A stretch of DNA of 64,000 bases from Antarctobacter sediminis (GTDB lineage Bacteria; Pseudomonadota; Alphaproteobacteria; Rhodobacterales; Rhodobacteraceae): positions 1,116,001-1,180,000 of the forward strand of contig NZ_JAHUZG010000001.1 of assembly GCF_019218285.1 (NCBI RefSeq). Direction: 5' to 3'. Below are positions 1-8,089 of the stretch, piece after piece (positions within the stretch are counted from its first letter, which is position 1; the number at the start of each line of letters is the position of its first letter). Below the pieces are notes generated by a model that saw only the letters and a program-made list of their open reading frames with translations, was not told where the DNA came from and searched no databases. The position numbers and the translations under genes are program-made.

Positions 1-753
1 GAAAATACGTTCCGCCGCCGGATTGAACCGCTGGATGTCCCCTTTCATATCCGCCACGATCACCGCATCCAGCGAGGTGTCGAGGATCGTGTTCAGGCGT
101 GCATAGGCGGCCGAAAGCTCATGCCCGCGCCGTTCTGTCTGACGCGAGGCGGTCTGGGCGAGGCGCAGCAGAAACAACAGAACCAGCACCAGGATCACCG
201 TCAGCAGAGCCAGCCGCATCAGCGTTACGGCCACGGAATTGCGCTGTGCGTCCGATTGCCGGGCAAAGAAATCCAGCCCCGAGGTCGCCAGCGCCCGCAA
301 GTCCGCGCGCACATCGTGCAACATGTCCTCAAGCCGCGGCAGATCGGCGATCAGCGCCTCTGTCGGGCCGTCGATCAGCGGAACAGAGGCGGCCAGCGTC
401 TGTTGAATGCGGGCAAGCGGCGCGCCGAAATCCGGCAAGCCGCGCAGATCCGTATAGATCCGACTGTTGGCCAGAGTCTGGATACGGCTGTAAAAAATGT
501 CGTATTCCTCTTTCAGCGAGTCGAGATCAGCGCCCTGATCCAGCTGCGCATGTTCCACCTCGTAGAGCAGTTCAAGGAATTCGACTTCGGCCTGTGACAG
601 GGTCCACTGCACGTTGTCCGACCGCGCATCGTTCAGCAGCCGCAGATCGCGGACGATCTCGACGGCGAGAATGCCGATGGCCACAACGCAGAGCAATGCG
701 ACGCCGAAAAAGATCGCGCGCCCGCCCTGCCGAAACAAACCGAGAAATTTCAT
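1..753 (-). CDS. Membrane sensor kinase, N-terminal part (PAS domain), truncated by window edge
   Basis: The frame reads leftward from ATG at 753 and is still open at base 1, giving 251 residues. A transmembrane segment at about residues 12-31 and a second at about 174-197 enclose a mostly helical periplasmic domain of about 140 residues. A PAS-like start follows (NTILDTSLDAVIVADMKGDI, about 221-240, then RFNPAAERIF). This is the layout of a membrane histidine kinase; the kinase core, and any receiver domain, would lie outside the window. It sits 33 bases downstream of the secreted protein at 787-1296 on the same strand, so the two probably share a transcript. By proximity it may be the partner of the response regulator at 3051-3665. 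A diguanylate cyclase with a PAS domain cannot be excluded because the output domain is not seen. Confidence 0.75.
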   Translation of the reverse strand, partial: MKFLGLFRQGGRAIFFGVALLCVVAIGILAVEIVRDLRLLNDARSDNVQWTLSQAEVEFLELLYEVEHAQLDQGADLDSLKEEYDIFYSRIQTLANSRIYTDLRGLPDFGAPLARIQQTLAASVPLIDGPTEALIADLPRLEDMLHDVRADLRALATSGLDFFARQSDAQRNSVAVTLMRLALLTVILVLVLLFLLRLAQTASRQTERRGHELSAAYARLNTILDTSLDAVIVADMKGDIQRFNPAAERIF

Positions 754-786
754 AGCCTGTCCGTTCCCTGGGCCGGCGTTGCGGCC

Positions 787-1296
787 TTACTTGCGAATGT
801 CCATCCGGTCCAATTGCCAGATGCTGCGCGCGTAGATGACTTCTGTCCGGTATTCAGAGGACGCGGCATAGGGATAGATCAGCCACAGCGGCCCCTTGTC
901 CCGGCGCGACATGATCTTGCCGTCCATTTCGAATGCGATGATCGGTCCACCGTCCACGCCGTCGGCTACCGGCACACTGACGGCGTAATCATTGATGGCG
1001 CGGGCCTCGATTTCGCCCCCGTCGGCCTGAAGGTAATCCAGCAGATCCTCCAGCTCGACCCCGGTGAAGGTCGATGTATCCGCCGTCCAGATCGTATCGG
1101 TGACAATCTCCGTCTCGCCGATGGCCCGCAACATGTCGAGATCGAAACGCGCGGCCCCGTCGCCGTTGGTGCGCCCTATCTCTCCGGTGACGGTCAGAAC
1201 CACGGGCCCGCGCGGTTCCGGCAGATCCTGTGCAAAAGCGGCACCCGCCAGCAGGACGGTACCGCAGGCGGCTGAAACAAGGCTCAAAGACGTCAT
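787..1296 (-). CDS. Secreted molybdopterin-oxidoreductase-fold protein, no cysteine in mature part
   Basis: A 169-residue protein with a clear Sec signal peptide (hydrophobic SLVSAACGTVLLAGAAFAQ, cleavage after AFA). ATG at 1296 is preceded by GGAAGGA, which favours it over an in-frame ATG at 1332. The body (VLTVTGEIG..., FTGVELEDLLDYL, YAVSVPVAD, PLWLIYPY) resembles the small periplasmic proteins annotated as oxidoreductase molybdopterin-binding domain, the sulfite oxidase fold. The mature chain contains no cysteine, so it lacks the usual Mo-ligating thiolate. It precedes the sensor kinase in the same orientation and may feed it a signal; that is inference. A palindrome shared with the neighbouring polysaccharide genes lies about 75 bases upstream. 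Confidence 0.65.
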   Translation of the reverse strand: MTSLSLVSAACGTVLLAGAAFAQDLPEPRGPVVLTVTGEIGRTNGDGAARFDLDMLRAIGETEIVTDTIWTADTSTFTGVELEDLLDYLQADGGEIEARAINDYAVSVPVADGVDGGPIIAFEMDGKIMSRRDKGPLWLIYPYAASSEYRTEVIYARSIWQLDRMDIRK

Positions 1297-1369
1297 TCGC
1301 AAAATCCTTCCGGTTCGATTCACTTGTGCCATAGCCGCCTTAATAGAGCATGGGGACTTTCGGATTGCC

Positions 1370-1391
1370 GCCCTATCCATCTGGATAGGGC
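1370..1391. promoter_or_regulatory. Palindrome copy 1 of the polysaccharide locus (CCCTATCC-N4-GGATAGGG)
   Basis: Perfect inverted repeat with 9-base arms, GCCCTATCC and GGATAGGGC, separated by ATCT. It lies between the end of the glycosyltransferase fusion and the start of the secreted protein, about 75 bases upstream of that start codon. Two related copies occur at 2934-2953 and 3685-3706. It is probably an operator; a small hairpin is the alternative, but there is no T-tract. Confidence 0.6.
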
Positions 1392-1407
1392 AGCGTAGCG
1401 GTGGCGA

Positions 1408-2787
1408 TCAATAGGCCCCCCGCCCCGAAATCACCGCGCGTGCCGTCATCGCCAGCAGCAACAGGTCCAGCAGCAGGCTGCGCGAACGCACATAGGCGAC
1501 GTCCATGTCGATCATCTTGTCGAACCCGATGTCCGCCCGCCCCGAAACCTGCCACAACCCGGTGATGCCCGGCTTGGCGTTCAGACGCTCTAGCGCGCGG
1601 GCCGGATAGGCGGCAACCTCCTTGGGCAGCGCCGGGCGCGGGCCGACCAGCGACATGTCACCTTTGAGAACGTTCAGGATCTGCGGCAGTTCGTCGATGG
1701 AGTAACGGCGCAGGATACGACCGATGCGGGTGACGCGCGGATCGTGGCGGGATTTGAAACAGATGCCCTCGCGGTCCGAGTTGGCCTCCAGCTCGGCGCG
1801 GCGCGCCTCTGCGTTGACGTGCATCGAGCGGAACTTGTACATGGTGAAAAATTCGCCGTTTTCACCCACGCGGACCTGCCGGAACAACACCGGGCCGCGG
1901 CTGTCGAGCCGGATCACCATCGCCACCAACAACAGGATCGGCGCCGCCGCAAGGATCAGCGCGGCGCTGGAAAAGGCGTCAAAGGCGCGTTTCACCGCAA
2001 CGTCCTTGCGAATGGTGCCCAGCGCATGACGGGCCGCCCGCGCAAGAAAGGTGAAATTGCCCACGAGATAGCGGTTCGCCATGCGGCGCGGTTCCATCGC
2101 AAGCCGCCAGACCCACTCGGCCTTGGCCTTGCGCACCAGTTCCGGCGCGCGGCGCACGTTGCCGGCAAGGAAGTCGAACAAGGCACCGACGCCAAGGATC
2201 AGCCGGGGCGAAAGTTTCTCGGCATTCCGGTCGATCCACAACTCTTGCATCGGCACGCCCATGGCAACCAGCAGGATGTCCGCGCCAGAGCGGTTGATGT
2301 GGGCGATGGCGGCCTCACTGTCGGCGGCACCTTCGTATCCGTCACGGGTGCCCGCGATCCGCAGGCCGGGAATGGTCAGCGCCAGCTTGCGGGCCGCCGA
2401 CTCCGCCGTGCCCGGCTTGGCCCCGAACAGATAGACCGACTTGCCCTGTCGCGCGGCTGCGCGCAGCAGTTCCGGGGTGAAATCCGTGCCGTTGAGATTT
2501 TCAGTCAGGCCCTTGCCGGTCATGCGGGCCGCCAGTTCCACACCGATGCCATCGGGCAGCACCATGTCGGCGTTTTCCAGCGCCGCGGCATAGGCGCTGT
2601 TGCGGACACGGACATTGGCGCAATGCGCATTCAGGAAATAAACCCGACGTGCCGTCCCGTCGAGCAACGCCTCGACCGTCTGGGCCGTGGTGGCATCCAC
2701 CAACGGCAGCCCCATGACGGTGCGGCGGCGCATCGGCAGGGCAACGGGGGTGGCGGTGGTGAAGGCGTCAGAGGCATAGGCGTGCAT
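1408..2787 (-). CDS. WecG/TagA/CpsF glycosyltransferase fused to polyprenyl-phosphate sugar transferase
   Basis: A 459-residue fusion for exopolysaccharide synthesis at the inner membrane. Residues about 20-240 match the WecG/TagA/CpsF (GT26) family: PDGIGVELAARM, NGTDFTPELL, LLVAMGVPMQELW, GVGALFDFLAGNVRRAP. Residues about 265-459 match the WcaJ/ExoY sugar transferase family: a membrane helix (ALILAAAPILLLVAMVIRL), GPVLFRQVRVGENG, MYKFRSM, SIDELPQILNVLKGDMSLVGPRP, KPGITGLWQVSGR. Known family roles are transfer of the first sugar-phosphate to undecaprenyl phosphate (C-terminal half) and addition of the second sugar (N-terminal half), so one chain may do both. The start at 2787 has AGGAGAA upstream. 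The open frame continues to 3162, but that part overlaps a promoter region and looks non-coding. Confidence 0.85.
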   Translation of the reverse strand: MHAYASDAFTTATPVALPMRRRTVMGLPLVDATTAQTVEALLDGTARRVYFLNAHCANVRVRNSAYAAALENADMVLPDGIGVELAARMTGKGLTENLNGTDFTPELLRAAARQGKSVYLFGAKPGTAESAARKLALTIPGLRIAGTRDGYEGAADSEAAIAHINRSGADILLVAMGVPMQELWIDRNAEKLSPRLILGVGALFDFLAGNVRRAPELVRKAKAEWVWRLAMEPRRMANRYLVGNFTFLARAARHALGTIRKDVAVKRAFDAFSSAALILAAAPILLLVAMVIRLDSRGPVLFRQVRVGENGEFFTMYKFRSMHVNAEARRAELEANSDREGICFKSRHDPRVTRIGRILRRYSIDELPQILNVLKGDMSLVGPRPALPKEVAAYPARALERLNAKPGITGLWQVSGRADIGFDKMIDMDVAYVRSRSLLLDLLLLAMTARAVISGRGAY

Positions 2788-2933
2788 TGTCGGATTCTCC
2801 TGGGCTGGATTTGATCCAATGCTTCCCCCATTCGGCCGCTTTGCCTCAATTCCCGCCATCGGACAGTCAGCGGCGCCGAGGCATGGCCCCGCCCCCCAAG
2901 CGGCCAGCGCCGCCGCCCCATCCGGATCGGTCG

Positions 2934-2953
2934 GCCTATACCGTGGCATAGGG
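2934..2953. promoter_or_regulatory. Palindrome copy 2 (CCTAT-N8-ATAGG), divergent promoter region
   Basis: GCCTAT, eight bases (ACCGTGGC), then ATAGGG. Outer arms and spacing are those of copies 1 and 3, but the inner bases are degenerate. It lies in the 263-base gap between the leftward glycosyltransferase fusion (start 2787) and the rightward response regulator (start 3051), about 97 bases before the latter. Confidence 0.45.
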
Positions 2954-3050
2954 CGCCCCCCATTTCCCCCTGTGCCTTGCCCTGCGAAAGGCGTAACGAA
3001 GACCGCAGAGCAGCGCTTTAACTCTGCGCCTGATCCAGTAAGGTACCGAT

Positions 3051-3665
3051 ATGCGAATTCTGATTGCCGACGATCATGACCTTCTGCGCGATACGCTGGT
3101 CGCCTTTCTGGGCGCCGAGCAGGGCTTCGAGATCGGCACCGCCGCCAGCTATCCCGAGGCACAGACCCGTATCCGCGAAGATGCCCCCTATGACCTTGTG
3201 CTGCTGGATTACAAGATGCCGGGCATGATGGGGCTGGACAGCCTGAAAGAGGCGCTGGAGATGGAAGGCGGCCAGCGCGTTGCCCTGATTTCCGGCGAGG
3301 CCACGCGCGAAATCGCGGAACAGGCGCTGGAAATGGGGGCCGCCGGTTTCGTGCCCAAAACGCTGCCCGCCAAATCGCTGGTGAACGCGGTGCGCTTTAT
3401 GGCCATGGGCGAGAAATACGCGCCCATCGACTTTATGACCGCACCCGAGGCCGAGGAAACCAATCCGCTAGCCAAAAAACTGACCCCGCGCGAAATGGAT
3501 GTTCTCAAGGGGCTTGGCGAAGGCAAGTCCAACAAGGAAATCGCCCGCGACCTTGGCCTGACCGAACCGACCATCAAGCTGCACATGAAGACGCTTTATC
3601 GCAAGCTGGAGGTCAACAACCGCACGCAGGCAGCGCTGGCCGCGCGCGAAGCCGGGCTGTTCTGA
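3051..3665 (+). CDS. NarL/LuxR-family response regulator
   Basis: A 204-residue two-domain regulator. The receiver domain (about 1-120) has the acidic pair D7-D8, the phospho-acceptor D53 in LVLLDYKMPG, and K363-like region PKTLPAKSL near the end of the domain. The C-terminal LuxR helix-turn-helix (about 140-200) reads LTPREMDVLKGLGEGKSNKE then IARDLGLTEPTIKLHMKTLY. The start is preceded by TAAGG. It lies between polysaccharide genes on both strands and is the only dedicated transcription factor there, so it is the natural candidate to bind the three shared palindromes; that link is inference. Its cognate kinase may be the truncated sensor at 1-753. Confidence 0.9.
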   Translation: MRILIADDHDLLRDTLVAFLGAEQGFEIGTAASYPEAQTRIREDAPYDLVLLDYKMPGMMGLDSLKEALEMEGGQRVALISGEATREIAEQALEMGAAGFVPKTLPAKSLVNAVRFMAMGEKYAPIDFMTAPEAEETNPLAKKLTPREMDVLKGLGEGKSNKEIARDLGLTEPTIKLHMKTLYRKLEVNNRTQAALAAREAGLF

Positions 3666-3684
3666 CTGGGCTTGTTTCCGGCGC

Positions 3685-3706
3685 ACCCTATCCGCCCGGA
3701 TAGGGT
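3685..3706. promoter_or_regulatory. Palindrome copy 3 (CCCTATCC-N4-GGATAGGG) upstream of wzz-like gene
   Basis: Perfect inverted repeat ACCCTATCC - GCCC - GGATAGGGT. It lies 90 bases upstream of the chain-length determinant and 20 bases after the response regulator stop. The eight inner arm bases are identical to copy 1 and the spacer length is the same. No T-run follows, so an operator is more likely than a terminator. Confidence 0.6.
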
Positions 3707-3795
3707 CACGGGCCGGATGCGCCCCTGCGCCCTCCCCCCGCGTGCAAGCCATGCGCGGCCCCGTCCTGTAGGTCTTCGGTCAAAGGAGACCCGCC

Positions 3796-5244
3796 ATGAC
3801 CCTTCAGGACACATTCGCCCCCGAACCGCGCCGCCGCAAGGTGCCCGCCATCATCCGCACGCCGCTGCGGCAGCTGTCGATCAAGCGCCTGTTCCTTGGT
3901 GGCCGCGCCGGTGATCTTGGCCGCCTGCCGCGTTACGCCGGCATCTTCCTGATGGGCTCGACCGCGATCTGGGCGCCGATCACCGGCTATCTCAAGACCG
4001 CGCCGCTGAGTTTTTCCAGCCACATGTCGCTGATCCTGCCGGGGTCCGGGGCCTCGGCCTCGGTCAACCTTGCGGACATCGGGCAGGCCTCGTCCTTTGC
4101 CAGTTCGGCCTTTGCCTCGAACTCGATCAGCCCGACGGAAACCTACAAGCGCCTGCTGGGTGCGGGCCGCATTCTCAAGGATGCCGCCGACCGGCATGGC
4201 GTCGACTGGCGCGCCTTTGGCCAGCCCAAGATCCGGCTGGTGGACCAGACCGCCTTTATCCACGTGGAAATGACCGGCTCCACACCCGAGGACGCCCGCG
4301 ACCGCAACAGCGCCTTGCTGGCCGCCTTCTTCGAGGAAATCGACCGGCTGCGGGCCGATGAACTGGCCACGCGCGAGGGCGGCGGCTTGAACGCGATCCG
4401 CGAATATCAGGCCTCGGTCGCGGGAACGCGGGACGAAATCGCCCTGCTGCAGAAATCCACCGGGCTGTATTCGGTCGATCAATACGCACGACAGGTGGAC
4501 GAACTGGACGCCCTGCGCACACAGGCCGATCGCCTGACCACCGAGTTGCAGCGCGCCGAAGGCGCCGTTGCCCGGCTGGAGGCCCGGCTGGGCACCGATG
4601 CGGAACGCGCGGCGCTGATCCTGCGGGTCAACGCCGACAGCAATTACCTTGCGCTGCTGGAAACCATGGCCGAGGCCGCCGCCGATCTTGCCGATGCGCG
4701 GTCGCGCTATGGCTCGCGCCATCCCCGCGTGTTGAGCGCACAGGCCGCCCATGACGAGGCGCGCTCCGATGCCGATACGCTGGTGGCCGAAATCACCGGC
4801 AACGCGCTGGATCTGGAACGTGCCGCCAACGGTGGTCGCACCGACCTGCTGACCGATCTTGTCCGGCAAGAGGCCGAACGCACCGGACTTGCCGCGCAGC
4901 TTGCCGAACTGAGCGCCCAGTTACAGACGGAAACCGCGCGTCTGGACGCCCTGGCCCCCGCCGCCGCCCGTCTGGAAGACATGCAGCGCGATTTCAACGT
5001 GGCCGAGGCAGTCTTTGCCTCTGCCATCGCGCGCACGCAGTCCTCGAAAGCGGACATCTACGCTTCGTATCCGCTGGTGCAGGTGCTGGAGGATCCGACG
5101 CTGGCCGAGGAGCCGACCTCGCCCAAGCGCAAGCTGGCCATCGCCGCCGGGGGCGCCGCGACCTTCATGCTGTTCATGGGGCTGATGCTGGGCTGGCTGC
5201 GCAAGCCGCTGATCGAAAAGCTGCTGGTCAAGAAGGACAAGTAA
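3796..5244 (+). CDS. Wzz/GumC-type polysaccharide chain-length/co-polymerase protein
   Basis: A 482-residue inner-membrane protein with two flanking membrane segments (about 47-66 and 447-468). Between them is a large periplasmic domain rich in coiled coil (for example DELDALRTQADRLTTELQRA and DMQRDFNVAEAVFASAIART). The PxxP-like stretch EEPTSPKRKLAIAAGG just before the second segment is typical of polysaccharide co-polymerases. There is no C-terminal tyrosine kinase domain, unlike BY-kinase fusions. The start follows AAAGGAGA. It is followed after three bases by the Wzy/ligase-like gene, so the two form an operon. The expected role is control of exopolysaccharide length or export. Confidence 0.85.
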   Translation: MTLQDTFAPEPRRRKVPAIIRTPLRQLSIKRLFLGGRAGDLGRLPRYAGIFLMGSTAIWAPITGYLKTAPLSFSSHMSLILPGSGASASVNLADIGQASSFASSAFASNSISPTETYKRLLGAGRILKDAADRHGVDWRAFGQPKIRLVDQTAFIHVEMTGSTPEDARDRNSALLAAFFEEIDRLRADELATREGGGLNAIREYQASVAGTRDEIALLQKSTGLYSVDQYARQVDELDALRTQADRLTTELQRAEGAVARLEARLGTDAERAALILRVNADSNYLALLETMAEAAADLADARSRYGSRHPRVLSAQAAHDEARSDADTLVAEITGNALDLERAANGGRTDLLTDLVRQEAERTGLAAQLAELSAQLQTETARLDALAPAAARLEDMQRDFNVAEAVFASAIARTQSSKADIYASYPLVQVLEDPTLAEEPTSPKRKLAIAAGGAATFMLFMGLMLGWLRKPLIEKLLVKKDK

Positions 5245-5247
5245 GCC

Positions 5248-6567
5248 ATGACGCCCGATCCGGTCCTGCCCCGCAACCCCGCCGAGGGCGCCTTTTACAA
5301 GATCATCGTCCTGACCTGGGTGTTCTACCTTTTCGGGGCGCTTTACGTGGTCGGCCCGGTTCTGGCCTGGACGATGGGCGGTCTGGCGGCGCTGTCGCTG
5401 TACCTTGGGCCGGCGGTGCGCGAAGACCTGCGCGCCACCGGGGGTATCCCGCCGATCATCTGGGGCTGGATCATCGGCATGATCGTCATGCTGGTGGCGC
5501 TGTGGGCCGGTCACATGGATTGGGCGCTGGGGACCAAGAAAACGATCAAATCCTCGATCGGCTGGGCCAAGGGCTGGGCGCTGCTGGCGCTGTTCCCGCT
5601 GATCGGGGCCGTTCTGCCGATCCGCCGCGAAGTCTTGGTGCGCGCGCAATGCCGGCTGGGCATGTGGACGCTGATCCTTGCGCCGGTCTTGATCGCCGCG
5701 CCCTATATCGGGATGCCGGAAAAGATCTTTACCTCCCCGCTCAAGGCCATTGGCGGCCCGGGCCCCGAGTATTTCTCGGTCTATTTCTTCACCTACGACC
5801 CGGCAAGCTGGACCCCGCGCTGGCAGTTCTATGCACCTTGGTCGCCCTTTGCCGCACTTCTGGGCGTGGTGCAGGTGCTGTTCGCGCTGGAGGAAAAGAA
5901 CCGCAAGTGGATGATGATGGGCGTGGCCGCGGGCGTGCTGATGATCCTTGCATCAAAGTCGCGCATGGGTCTGGTGGGACTTGTGGCCTGCACCATCGGC
6001 CCGCGCATGATGCCGCTGGTCTTCAAGGTCTGGGCATGGATGGCACTGTCGGCAATGACGGCCACCTTGTCGGTCATCGGCGGCTGGCTGGGCGAAAAGA
6101 TCGAGGCCTTCGTCGCCGCCTTCAAGGGCGCGCGCGCCGACAGCACCCGCGTCCGCGAAACGCTGCAACGCATCGCCCATGAACGCTGGGAAAACGAGGC
6201 CGTCTGGTTCGGTCATGGCACCGTGCATCCCGGCCCGCACCTTGTGGAATACATGCCCATCGGCAGCCATCACACGTGGTACGGCCTGCTGTTTGTCAAA
6301 GGGCTGACCGGTTTCTTTGCCCTGCTGGTGCCGCTGGTCTGGCAGACGCTGCTGGCGCTGTGGGATTCGGCGCGCGGTCCACGCGGCCGCCTGCCGCTGG
6401 GGATCATGATGGTGATCGTGCTGCTGTCGATGGGCGAGAACCTAGAAATCGAGGTCTACCTTCTGTGGCCCGCGCTGGTGGTTCTGGGCATCCATGCCCG
6501 CGAACTGGCCGACGAAAAGGCCGAAAAGCGGGCCGAGCGCGCCCTTGCCACCGCGCAACCCGCCTGA
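5248..6567 (+). CDS. O-antigen ligase/Wzy polymerase-like membrane protein
   Basis: A 439-residue polytopic membrane protein with roughly ten hydrophobic segments. A large loop before the C-terminal helices contains WFGHGTVHPGPHLVEYMPIG followed by SHHTWYGLLFVKGLTGFFAL. A conserved-looking basic motif SKSRMGLVGL precedes the loop. This is the arrangement of Wzy_C/O-antigen ligase family proteins, which polymerise or transfer lipid-linked glycans in the periplasm. It is coupled to the Wzz-like gene. No flippase, outer-membrane exporter or further glycosyltransferase is visible here, so the pathway is completed elsewhere. Confidence 0.8.
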   Translation: MTPDPVLPRNPAEGAFYKIIVLTWVFYLFGALYVVGPVLAWTMGGLAALSLYLGPAVREDLRATGGIPPIIWGWIIGMIVMLVALWAGHMDWALGTKKTIKSSIGWAKGWALLALFPLIGAVLPIRREVLVRAQCRLGMWTLILAPVLIAAPYIGMPEKIFTSPLKAIGGPGPEYFSVYFFTYDPASWTPRWQFYAPWSPFAALLGVVQVLFALEEKNRKWMMMGVAAGVLMILASKSRMGLVGLVACTIGPRMMPLVFKVWAWMALSAMTATLSVIGGWLGEKIEAFVAAFKGARADSTRVRETLQRIAHERWENEAVWFGHGTVHPGPHLVEYMPIGSHHTWYGLLFVKGLTGFFALLVPLVWQTLLALWDSARGPRGRLPLGIMMVIVLLSMGENLEIEVYLLWPALVVLGIHARELADEKAEKRAERALATAQPA

Positions 6568-6587
6568 TCCACCGGGCGCCCGGGCGC

Positions 6588-6615
6588 AAAAAAAGACCGG
6601 CCCACACAGGGCCGG
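6588..6615 (-). terminator. Intrinsic terminator of ectABC-ask
   Basis: Read leftward: CCGGCCC - TGTGT - GGGCCGG followed by TCTTTTTTT. It lies about 55 bases beyond the ask stop codon. The convergent Wzy-like gene ends at 6567 and has no T-run on its own strand. Confidence 0.85.
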
Positions 6616-6670
6616 CCCAATCCTGTCGGACCCGTCACAGGCCCGTTTGTCATTCCGGCCACGCCGCCCG

Positions 6671-8089
6671 TCAGGCGACCAGCGCGACCTCTGCTTTCTC
6701 ATCGTCGAAGAACGCGTCGTGCAGGCTCTTGATGGCCTTGGACATATCGCCCCGTTCGAGGATGAACTGGGTATCCACGTTGCGCGGCCCCTGACTCGCG
6801 CCAACCGAATAGATGCCGCTGTTGGCAAAGGATTCCAGCCCGCGTTGCAGCACCGACAAACCGCTGAGATCGCGGCCCACAACCGACACAAGCGACAGCT
6901 TGCGCGTCTTGATCTCGGCCTGCGGATAGCGTTCGGCAAGATCGGACTCGACCCGGCGTAGCGCCTTCAGCGTGGTGTCGACATAATGCGTCACCGTGTT
7001 GGCGTTAGAGACCTTGGACACGATCCGCACGTTGTGCCGCGTCAGAACATCAAGGATCGAGGCGTCATACCCCTTGACCCCCACCATGTCCTGCTCGAAC
7101 ACCTCCAGCGCAAAGACATCCAGACCGGTCACGATCTCGACGCCCGGCGTATCGGCGGGCTGATCGTCGATCAGCGTGCCCGGATCGCCCGGATCAAAGG
7201 CATTGGTCACCCGCAGTGGAACGCCGGCCTGACGCAGGGTCTTGGCCGCCGACGGATGGATCGCCTCCATCCCGAGGTTCGCCATCTGGTCCGCCACGTC
7301 ATAGTTGGTCCGGCCCAGCTTGCGCACCTTGCTCGCGCCCACGATCTTGGGATCGGCAGAGGACAGGTGAAACTCCTTGTGAATGATCGCCTCTCGCGCC
7401 CCTGTCTGGGCGGCAAGCTGCGAGAACGTCACCTCGGAATAGCCCCGGTCGAATTCCCGCATCAGACCTTCGCGGCACTGGGCATAACCGGTGACGATCG
7501 GCATTTCGGTCGAAGGGTCGATCCCCTCCATGCCGCGCGCCAGCCGTTCGTCCAGCGATACCTCGCCTTCATCGCGCCAGCCGGTCAGGTCGACCAGCCG
7601 CGCGTCTGCGCCCGCCCTTTGCAGCAGCAAGACCGCCACAAGTGCGGAATGCGCCTCGCCCAGACCGGACAGCAGCTCGCGGATGTGGAGCAGATGTGCA
7701 TTCAACCGAAAGTGCCCGTAGGAACACAGGCGTTGCAGATCGATCAGGCAGTTACGCGCGCCTTCGATACGTTCCTGCACAAAGGCCGTGGCCTGTTCCA
7801 CGTCGCCGGGATGATCCAGAACCGCCTCGTGAGCCTCGATCATCGCCTGGCTGACGCGGCTCAGCGCATCGTGCCAGCCGTGGTCGTCCTCGGCATTGGC
7901 AAAACGCGCATAGGCGCCCGCCTCGCCGGTTTTCTTATGCTCCAGCAGCAGGTTGGTGATGCCACCAAAGGCCGACACCACGAAGACGCGGCCATATTCC
8001 GGCTTGCCGTCTTTCAGGAACAGCGTATCCCGCAGTTCCGCGAGGCGGGACATGCTTGTCCCGCCGATCTTTTCAACAGTATGGGTCAT
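6671..8089 (-). CDS. ask: Ectoine-type aspartate kinase
   Basis: A 472-residue aspartokinase. The N-terminal MTHTVEKIGGTSM carries the kinase KxGGTS motif, GRVFVVSAFGGITNLLLEHK belongs to the nucleotide-binding part, and two ACT-like regions sit at the C-terminus (SKVSNANTVTHYV, KLSLVSVVGRDLSG). Chosen ATG at 8089; the reading frame continues upstream into ectC and is not used. It is the last gene of ectABC-ask, four bases after ectC. Operon-linked Ask_Ect enzymes are known to supply aspartyl phosphate for ectoine synthesis. Confidence 0.93.
   Translation of the reverse strand: MTHTVEKIGGTSMSRLAELRDTLFLKDGKPEYGRVFVVSAFGGITNLLLEHKKTGEAGAYARFANAEDDHGWHDALSRVSQAMIEAHEAVLDHPGDVEQATAFVQERIEGARNCLIDLQRLCSYGHFRLNAHLLHIRELLSGLGEAHSALVAVLLLQRAGADARLVDLTGWRDEGEVSLDERLARGMEGIDPSTEMPIVTGYAQCREGLMREFDRGYSEVTFSQLAAQTGAREAIIHKEFHLSSADPKIVGASKVRKLGRTNYDVADQMANLGMEAIHPSAAKTLRQAGVPLRVTNAFDPGDPGTLIDDQPADTPGVEIVTGLDVFALEVFEQDMVGVKGYDASILDVLTRHNVRIVSKVSNANTVTHYVDTTLKALRRVESDLAERYPQAEIKTRKLSLVSVVGRDLSGLSVLQRGLESFANSGIYSVGASQGPRNVDTQFILERGDMSKAIKSLHDAFFDDEKAEVALVA

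Follow-up and report, generated by a model that had tools for sequence, protein, structure and literature searches.

A conserved palindromic operator at pruR-kinase and polysaccharide promoters of Antarctobacter sediminis, and a candidate LuxR-type regulator

The window analysed here is a 64,000-nucleotide stretch of the Antarctobacter sediminis genome (G000:C1:1116001-1180000; genome of 5,120,735 bases, or 5.12 Mb, in 21 contigs). It holds a polysaccharide locus in which several intergenic gaps carry copies of one palindrome. This palindrome is a DNA operator with a conserved unit of 20 bases, ACCTATCC-N4-GGATAGGT; its arm letters, its spacer and its placement are conserved in related loci, and it is tied to a NarL/FixJ (LuxR-type) response regulator and to pruR, which encodes a PruR-like protein and precedes the gene of a hybrid histidine kinase. 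The regulator encoded at 3051-3665 very probably binds this unit. The explanation as a whole, which combines the operator, the LuxR-type regulator and a pterin phosphorelay, is put forward with good confidence.

An earlier note on this DNA, made from the letters alone, described the palindrome as CCTAT-N8-ATAGG and placed it at the three intergenic promoters of the locus. The copies lie where it put them, at 1370-1391, 2934-2953 and 3685-3706. They span 2.3 kb and are the only matches in the window at up to one mismatch; all three are exact. Shuffled windows contain a mean of 0.29 such matches, and none of 100 shuffles contains three or more. Those three gaps stand, but the count and the extent of the unit do not: four gaps of the locus carry the operator, the fourth about 3 kb beyond the window edge, and what is conserved is the 20-base unit.

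Operator 1: 1370-1391, unstranded; GCCCTATCCATCTGGATAGGGC, perfect, 9-base arms, N4; precedes the pruR-like gene and the hybrid kinase gene
Operator 2: 2934-2953, unstranded; GCCTATACCGTGGCATAGGG, 5-base arms only, weak; between the glycosyltransferase fusion gene (minus strand) and the response regulator gene (plus strand)
Operator 3: 3685-3706, unstranded; ACCCTATCCGCCCGGATAGGGT, perfect, 9-base arms, N4; about 20 bases past the regulator stop codon, precedes the wzz-like gene
Operator 4: L116:13930-13949 (G000:C1:1112930-1112949), unstranded; one mismatch; in the divergent gap between the wzx-type flippase gene and wza

The common arms and spacing are as the note reported, and so are the perfect 9-base arms of two copies, sites 1 and 3. 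Its range of 75-150 bases to a start codon agrees with the coordinates: site 1 lies about 75 bases from the ATG of pruR (1296), site 2 about 97 bases from the regulator start (3051) and about 147 bases from the glycosyltransferase start (2787), and site 3 about 90 bases from the start of the wzz-like gene (3796). Site 2 departs from the 20-base form at 4 of 16 positions, and its profile score is 13.6; the other three operators score 22-23.

Conservation and placement of the palindrome

Related loci were taken as the best 80 of 509 around regulator relatives (62-88% identity; 821,633 bases). The best two are from Maliponia aquimaris and Mameliella alba, and most of the others are from genera which we take to be Rhodobacteraceae. 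Two Rhodobacteraceae-type loci carry actinobacterial names, Enemella evansiae (L040) and Nocardioides marinus (L065); these are perhaps mislabelled or contaminated.

These loci hold 43 exact copies of the inverted half-site CCTATCC with a spacer of 4; allowing up to one mismatch raises the count to 97, spread over 58 of the 80 loci. None of the twelve other spacers between 0 and 12 gives an exact match, and each gives 0-2 matches when one mismatch is allowed; no more than one match comes from any of 100 permuted half-sites. This spacer test is the strongest single result, and both the arm letters and the spacing are fixed. The spacer itself has the preference G-W-W-C.

Placement is conserved as well. 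Gaps were divided into class A (before pruR), class B (between the glycosyltransferase and regulator genes) and class C (between the regulator gene and wzz), with a site defined by at most 4 mismatches of 16. Class A has a site in 64 of the 68 loci that yielded pruR (19 without mismatch, 17 with one, 18 with two, 8 with three and 2 with four); class C has one in 45 of 50 loci (5, 12, 20 and 8 with one to four mismatches) and class B in 31 of 52 (6, 17 and 8 with two to four). By these distributions the pruR site is the best conserved and the pre-regulator site the worst. In four genomes picked for strict sites (L220-L223), all four gaps, including wza/wzx, carry a site with no more than 2 of 14 positions mismatched. 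The search of related genomes proposed with the earlier note thus finds the motif at the same gaps of orthologous loci, not missing from them.

Some loci have insertions between these genes. An insertion of about 0.9 kb between the glycosyltransferase gene and pruR places the site near -2580 rather than -1700 from the regulator start, where it is kept by pruR; with an insertion of about 1-1.4 kb after the regulator gene (L076, L110), the site is kept by wzz. Since the sites keep to promoters across insertions, they are explained by a protein operator and not by a hairpin.

RNA hairpins at gene ends, either terminators or mRNA-stabilising stems, would suit sites 1 and 3, which lie less than 20 bases past the stops of the glycosyltransferase and regulator genes and have 9-bp arms around a 4-base loop. 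They do not suit sites which stay by wzz or pruR despite the insertions above, nor sites 2 and 4 and those of modules free of polysaccharide genes, which are in divergent gaps. The arm letters are also fixed beyond what pairing requires: in arm pairs 2-8 of 171 non-redundant sites (at most 2 mismatches), changes are one-sided in 148 cases, two-sided and paired in 5 and two-sided and unpaired in 5, although the mismatch cut itself restricts two-sided changes, which makes the compensatory count weaker evidence. Of the 51 sites with two mismatches, 10 have the two changes within a single pair, where chance would give 3.9, and 5 of these 10 are still paired; such mild symmetry favours a hairpin but is also predicted by the operator of a dimer. 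No site has a terminator-like match (the only one in 1200-4000 is off-site, at 2642-2665) or the stem and following T-run of an intrinsic terminator, and the window has no Rfam match in 1-7000. The hairpin explanation was rejected mainly on placement and on the fixed arm letters, and it is extremely improbable.

Distribution and link to the regulator and pruR

The whole-genome search which had also been proposed finds the exact motif limited to this locus and not scattered at random: CCTAT-N8-ATAGG occurs three times in the genome, all at this locus, and the reversed pattern once. With one mismatch of the 10-base core there are 62 matches and 58 for the reversed control; this is background level, so the core is selective only if exact. 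When as many as 3 of 16 positions may mismatch, the 20-base form gives 13 matches in the genome against 1 for the control. Three of these are in this locus (site 2 is not included) and 10 are elsewhere, in 8 stretches. All 10 are within open reading frames called by a simple script; two of the frames resemble antisense frames, yet the matches are still within coding DNA. As a consequence no outside match was counted as a target, and a wider regulon in this genome was dropped.

A strict 14-base form occurs in 34 of 295 family genomes, at 47 sites; the reversed control occurs in none of the 295. Regulator relatives (E 1e-50, paralogues near 55% included) are found in 134 of the same genomes. A relative is present in 32 of the 34 motif-positive genomes and in 102 of the other 261 (hand tally; Fisher p 4e-10, which is optimistic because the genomes are related), and at least 31 of the 47 strict sites have one no more than 10 kb away. 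Confinement of the motif, its recurrence with a strict spacer at orthologous gaps and this co-occurrence bear out the suggestion of a private regulon around the LuxR-type regulator.

The further suggestion that this regulon is one of polysaccharide promoters holds at this locus but is too narrow, as the operator is also present where polysaccharide genes are undetected beside the module. In L036, L037, L053, L057 and others, as well as in L202-L205, L207 and L208, only the regulator, pruR and kinase genes were detected, and the site is in the divergent regulator-pruR gap. L036 (Maliponia) and L037 (Mameliella), the closest by regulator, have kept these three genes and the pruR operator; their 5-kb flanks gave no glycosyltransferase or wzz homologue. 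In Maliponia an aspartate-kinase gene lies about 1.8 kb past the regulator gene; in the window it is the third gene after it.

More distant modules were examined with a profile whose training set was L036-L115, the window and L116 alone. For 30 of the 41 modules of L174 and L181-L220 (52-62% identity), the best match in the 300 bases or less before the regulator was compared with 100 shuffles; L201-L210 and L220, nearly all obtained because of a known site, were omitted. The match beats all 100 shuffles in 11 of 20 modules with pruR adjacent and in none of 10 without pruR (p 0.004), or none of 9 when L217, at a contig edge, is removed (p 0.005). These counts supersede an earlier run, in which the training set overlapped the tested loci (12 of 20 and 0 of 10, p 0.0016). 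In our reading the operator is primarily that of the pruR-kinase unit, as a tendency and not a rule.

A different transcription factor, for example a global regulator which happens to control the locus, is very unlikely to be the protein that uses the operator. Such a factor would account for the 16 of 47 strict sites which are not near a regulator relative among the matches listed, and for a gap between MarR-type and ubiG-like genes with a strict site in L033 and L122. It would not account for the co-occurrence of motif and regulator, the presence of the site in modules that have only regulator, pruR and kinase, or the strong conservation of the recognition-helix region in orthologous regulators.

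A number of observations weigh against the operator-regulator explanation. Site 2 is weak; no class B site has fewer than 2 mismatches of 16 in any of 52 loci, 21 of the 52 have none within 4, and conserved promoter elements looked for beside the class B site were not seen. The class A site is absent in 4 of the 68 loci with pruR, and a scan of 1200-4000 for consensus sigma-70 promoters gave none. In 9 of the 20 distant modules that have pruR, no site exceeds every shuffle; conversely, a site does follow the regulator in L206 and L209, two modules where pruR was not detected, so the operator-pruR link is not strict. Two of the 16 strict sites away from listed regulator relatives can be placed, one before a pruR-kinase pair (L224) and one beside a wzz-like gene (L123, by eye); the remainder, two of which share the MarR/ubiG gap, could not be tied to the module. 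Finally, a strict match occurs outside the family in 9 of 332 genomes of the class (control 2), and no module genes were found in these nine 3-kb loci; a background of matches therefore exists.

The pruR-kinase pair of L224 (3181-6290) has an exact operator, and no regulator relative was found in the 13 kb covered; a regulator may act in trans. In L033:1500 and L122:1500 the strict site is in the same MarR-type/ubiG-like gap (by eye) of two genomes, and neither locus yielded a module gene; this is perhaps another target, or a site of another regulator.

The regulator, the PruR-like protein and the kinase

Genes of the locus are as follows.

787-1296 (L116:17787-18296), minus strand: PruR-like protein of 169 residues; PF00174 1.2e-06; PDB 7kos/7kou, 7rkb, 7kp2 and 7kom
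1-753 (whole gene L116:15246-17753), minus strand: N-terminal part of a DTB-type hybrid histidine kinase with WX7E sensor, PAS, HisKA, HATPase, receiver and Hpt
1408-2787, minus strand: WecG/TagA-type glycosyltransferase fused to a bacterial sugar transferase; PF03808, PF02397
3051-3665, plus strand: NarL/FixJ (LuxR-type) response regulator, presumed to bind the operator; PF00072 5e-21, PF00196 1e-20
3796-5244, plus strand: Wzz-like polysaccharide chain-length determinant; TIGR03007 and GNVR matches under the curated cut-offs
5248-6567, plus strand: polytopic membrane protein, perhaps a polymerase or ligase (a guess by eye); no Pfam or NCBIfam match

The regulator has the receiver and the GerE helix-turn-helix domain of the NarL/FixJ family. 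It is not a NarL orthologue, with 109 bits against an NCBIfam cut-off of 250 and a spacer of only 4 between CCTATCC arms, and no equivalog cut-off was reached among the NCBIfam matches listed. Pfam at E 0.001 gives only the receiver, GerE and a sub-cut-off Sigma70_r4_2; the autoinducer-binding domain of a quorum-sensing LuxR was not found. Its recognition-helix region is strongly conserved, with a few substitutions among the 80 relatives.

The product of the gene after site 1 had been labelled a secreted protein. The site does precede its start codon, but the label misses the context, since this is a PruR-like protein with a DTB-type kinase adjacent. A hydrophobic N-terminus is followed by an AxA-like cleavage site (by eye only). 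The Pfam match, to Oxidored_molyb, is weak; a profile of 42 homologues matches PDB entries 7kos/7kou, 7rkb, 7kp2 and 7kom at 1e-50 to 3e-29 (7kos 1e-50, 7kp2 1e-31; 2e-32 with the single sequence). Entry 7KOS is the Agrobacterium PruR, according to a review (PMC13259868). Size and homology are both those of PruR, a SUOX-fold pterin-binding protein of about 170 residues. According to the review, PruR has a Trp in place of the molybdenum Cys, and pterin binding is linked to a Trp, to Asn102 and to a Tyr (PMC13259868). Counted over the mature columns as a whole, Cys is absent from 67 of 69 PruR-like sequences.

PruR and a pterin are the likely input of the system. W70, N102 and Y104 are invariant in the 42 members and align to the same residues of 7kos; by our reading they would be the pterin-binding Trp, Asn102 and Tyr of the review. 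The same invariance speaks against the alternative that the PruR-like protein senses no pterin here and instead has another ligand or serves the kinase only as a structural partner, which is unlikely.

pruR is directly upstream of the kinase gene on the same strand (L116). The kinase has the order sensor-PAS-HisKA-HATPase-receiver-Hpt and is TorS/BaeS-like; its best NCBIfam match is TorS (2e-102; 344 bits against a cut-off of 676), with no equivalog cut-off reached among the matches listed. Its WX7E motif is WTLSQAEVE at residue 50, in a region judged periplasmic by eye; the motif is kept in 67 of 69 orthologues, and the other two have D for E. Many PruR genes precede such a "DTB" kinase with WX7E in its periplasmic region, as the review describes (PMC13259868). 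HisKA, receiver, Hpt and regulator all have their phosphorylation residues (by eye).

A possible pterin phosphorelay and its output

In the proposed mechanism, the periplasmic PruR-like protein would bind reduced pterin, a vitamin-like molecule that would thus be sensed outside the inner membrane, and act on the periplasmic WX7E region of the kinase. Phosphate would then move from His to Asp to His within the kinase (HisKA, receiver, Hpt) and on to the regulator, an order which is highly probable. Dimers of the phosphorylated regulator would occupy the operators. At the pruR-kinase promoter the regulator would act as an activator, giving positive feedback; where polysaccharide genes adjoin the module, it would also activate the glycosyltransferase/regulator, wzz and wzx/wza promoters.

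Activation is moderately favoured over repression, from the layout of the pruR promoters. These were compared in a set of 57 non-redundant promoters out of 63 rows, among them that of the window, all with a palindrome of no more than 3 mismatches in 16. They have, in order, the palindrome, often a further half-site xxCTATCC, GATGCCC-like bases, a TG-N-CATA-like box and the start codon; the box is about 41 bases past the palindrome, and no single position in it goes beyond 39-63%. This would fit activated promoters, which commonly have an activator site ahead of a weak -35. The same operator and regulator could instead work by repression, with the polysaccharide promoters blocked until a change in phosphorylation releases them. 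Several points suit a repressor: the upstream position rests solely on the TG-N-CATA-like box, operators at the other promoters lie at differing distances, and PruR with pterin lowers biofilm formation in Agrobacterium, according to the review (PMC13259868). Against this, the pruR palindrome is upstream of the likely promoter box and not over it, and the half-site between the palindrome and a poor -35 looks activator-like. Repression is a possible but doubtful reading.

In BarA/GacA, EvgS/EvgA and Rcs-type phosphorelays, a hybrid kinase with receiver and Hpt feeds a NarL/FixJ-family regulator; the system described here shares this plan but has a different operator and sensor, and no equivalog cut-off was reached among the matches listed. 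NarL 7-2-7 heptamer sites and lux boxes are inverted repeats read by a GerE-type helix-turn-helix. ACCTAT resembles the NarL heptamer, but the spacing here is not 7-2-7. The 20-bp layout here, ACCTRT-N8-AYAGGT, resembles that of the lux box; the regulator has a receiver, and no autoinducer domain was found in it.

Closer relatives are the PruR-DTB (DcpA-TorS-BaeS) kinases of Proteobacteria, of which that of Ruegeria pomeroyi DSS-3 is the example in Figure 5 of the review (PMC13259868). These have in common with the present system a pruR directly upstream, a periplasmic WX7E and a TorS-like kinase with PAS and receiver; unlike the systems as described in the review, the one here has a LuxR-type response regulator, a DNA operator and polysaccharide target genes attached. 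PruR-DcpA of Agrobacterium tumefaciens shares the periplasmic PruR, the WX7E sensor region and the control of an adhesive polysaccharide (PMC13259868). Its output is turnover of cyclic di-GMP (c-di-GMP) by DcpA, whereas the system described here has a kinase as its cytoplasmic part and would act on transcription.

In the review the domains of DTB systems are described with no response regulator named, and the term "response regulator" has 0 occurrences (PMC13259868). Titles and abstract beginnings of the papers listed, which are mostly outside subscription literature, do not mention the operator or a response regulator of PruR-DTB. The primary PruR-DTB paper (PNAS 2024, e2319903121) is outside the literature covered, so the pairing of regulator and PruR-DTB may already be noted in print. 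PruR-DTB systems are thus known, and the candidate partner regulator and operator may be new.

The same review describes only one worked-out bacterial pterin-signal pathway, which ends in c-di-GMP, and the range of functions under pterin control as a matter of active investigation (PMC13259868). We lean towards the view that the module is the missing output arm of PruR-DTB sensing. In Rhodobacteraceae, pterin redox state or supply in the periplasm would be passed by phosphorelay to exopolysaccharide transcription, through one regulator and a 20-bp operator which also drives the operon of its own sensor. The ancestral unit would be regulator, operator, pruR and kinase, and polysaccharide genes would join it by gaining operator copies. 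Now that a regulator which may be the partner, the exact operator and the target promoters can be named in marine bacteria, the question of pterin output becomes testable.

The A. sediminis genome has a second, paralogous pair on contig C2: a regulator of about 55% identity (L174:5595-6197, minus strand) and a DTB-type hybrid kinase with WX7E (L174:6468-9077, plus strand), beside which pruR was not found. Across L174:5595-9077 there is no palindrome of the same geometry with 7 of 8 pairs and no profile match above shuffles, and a distinct operator for the paralogue was dropped on these grounds. The paralogous kinase may share the one PruR.

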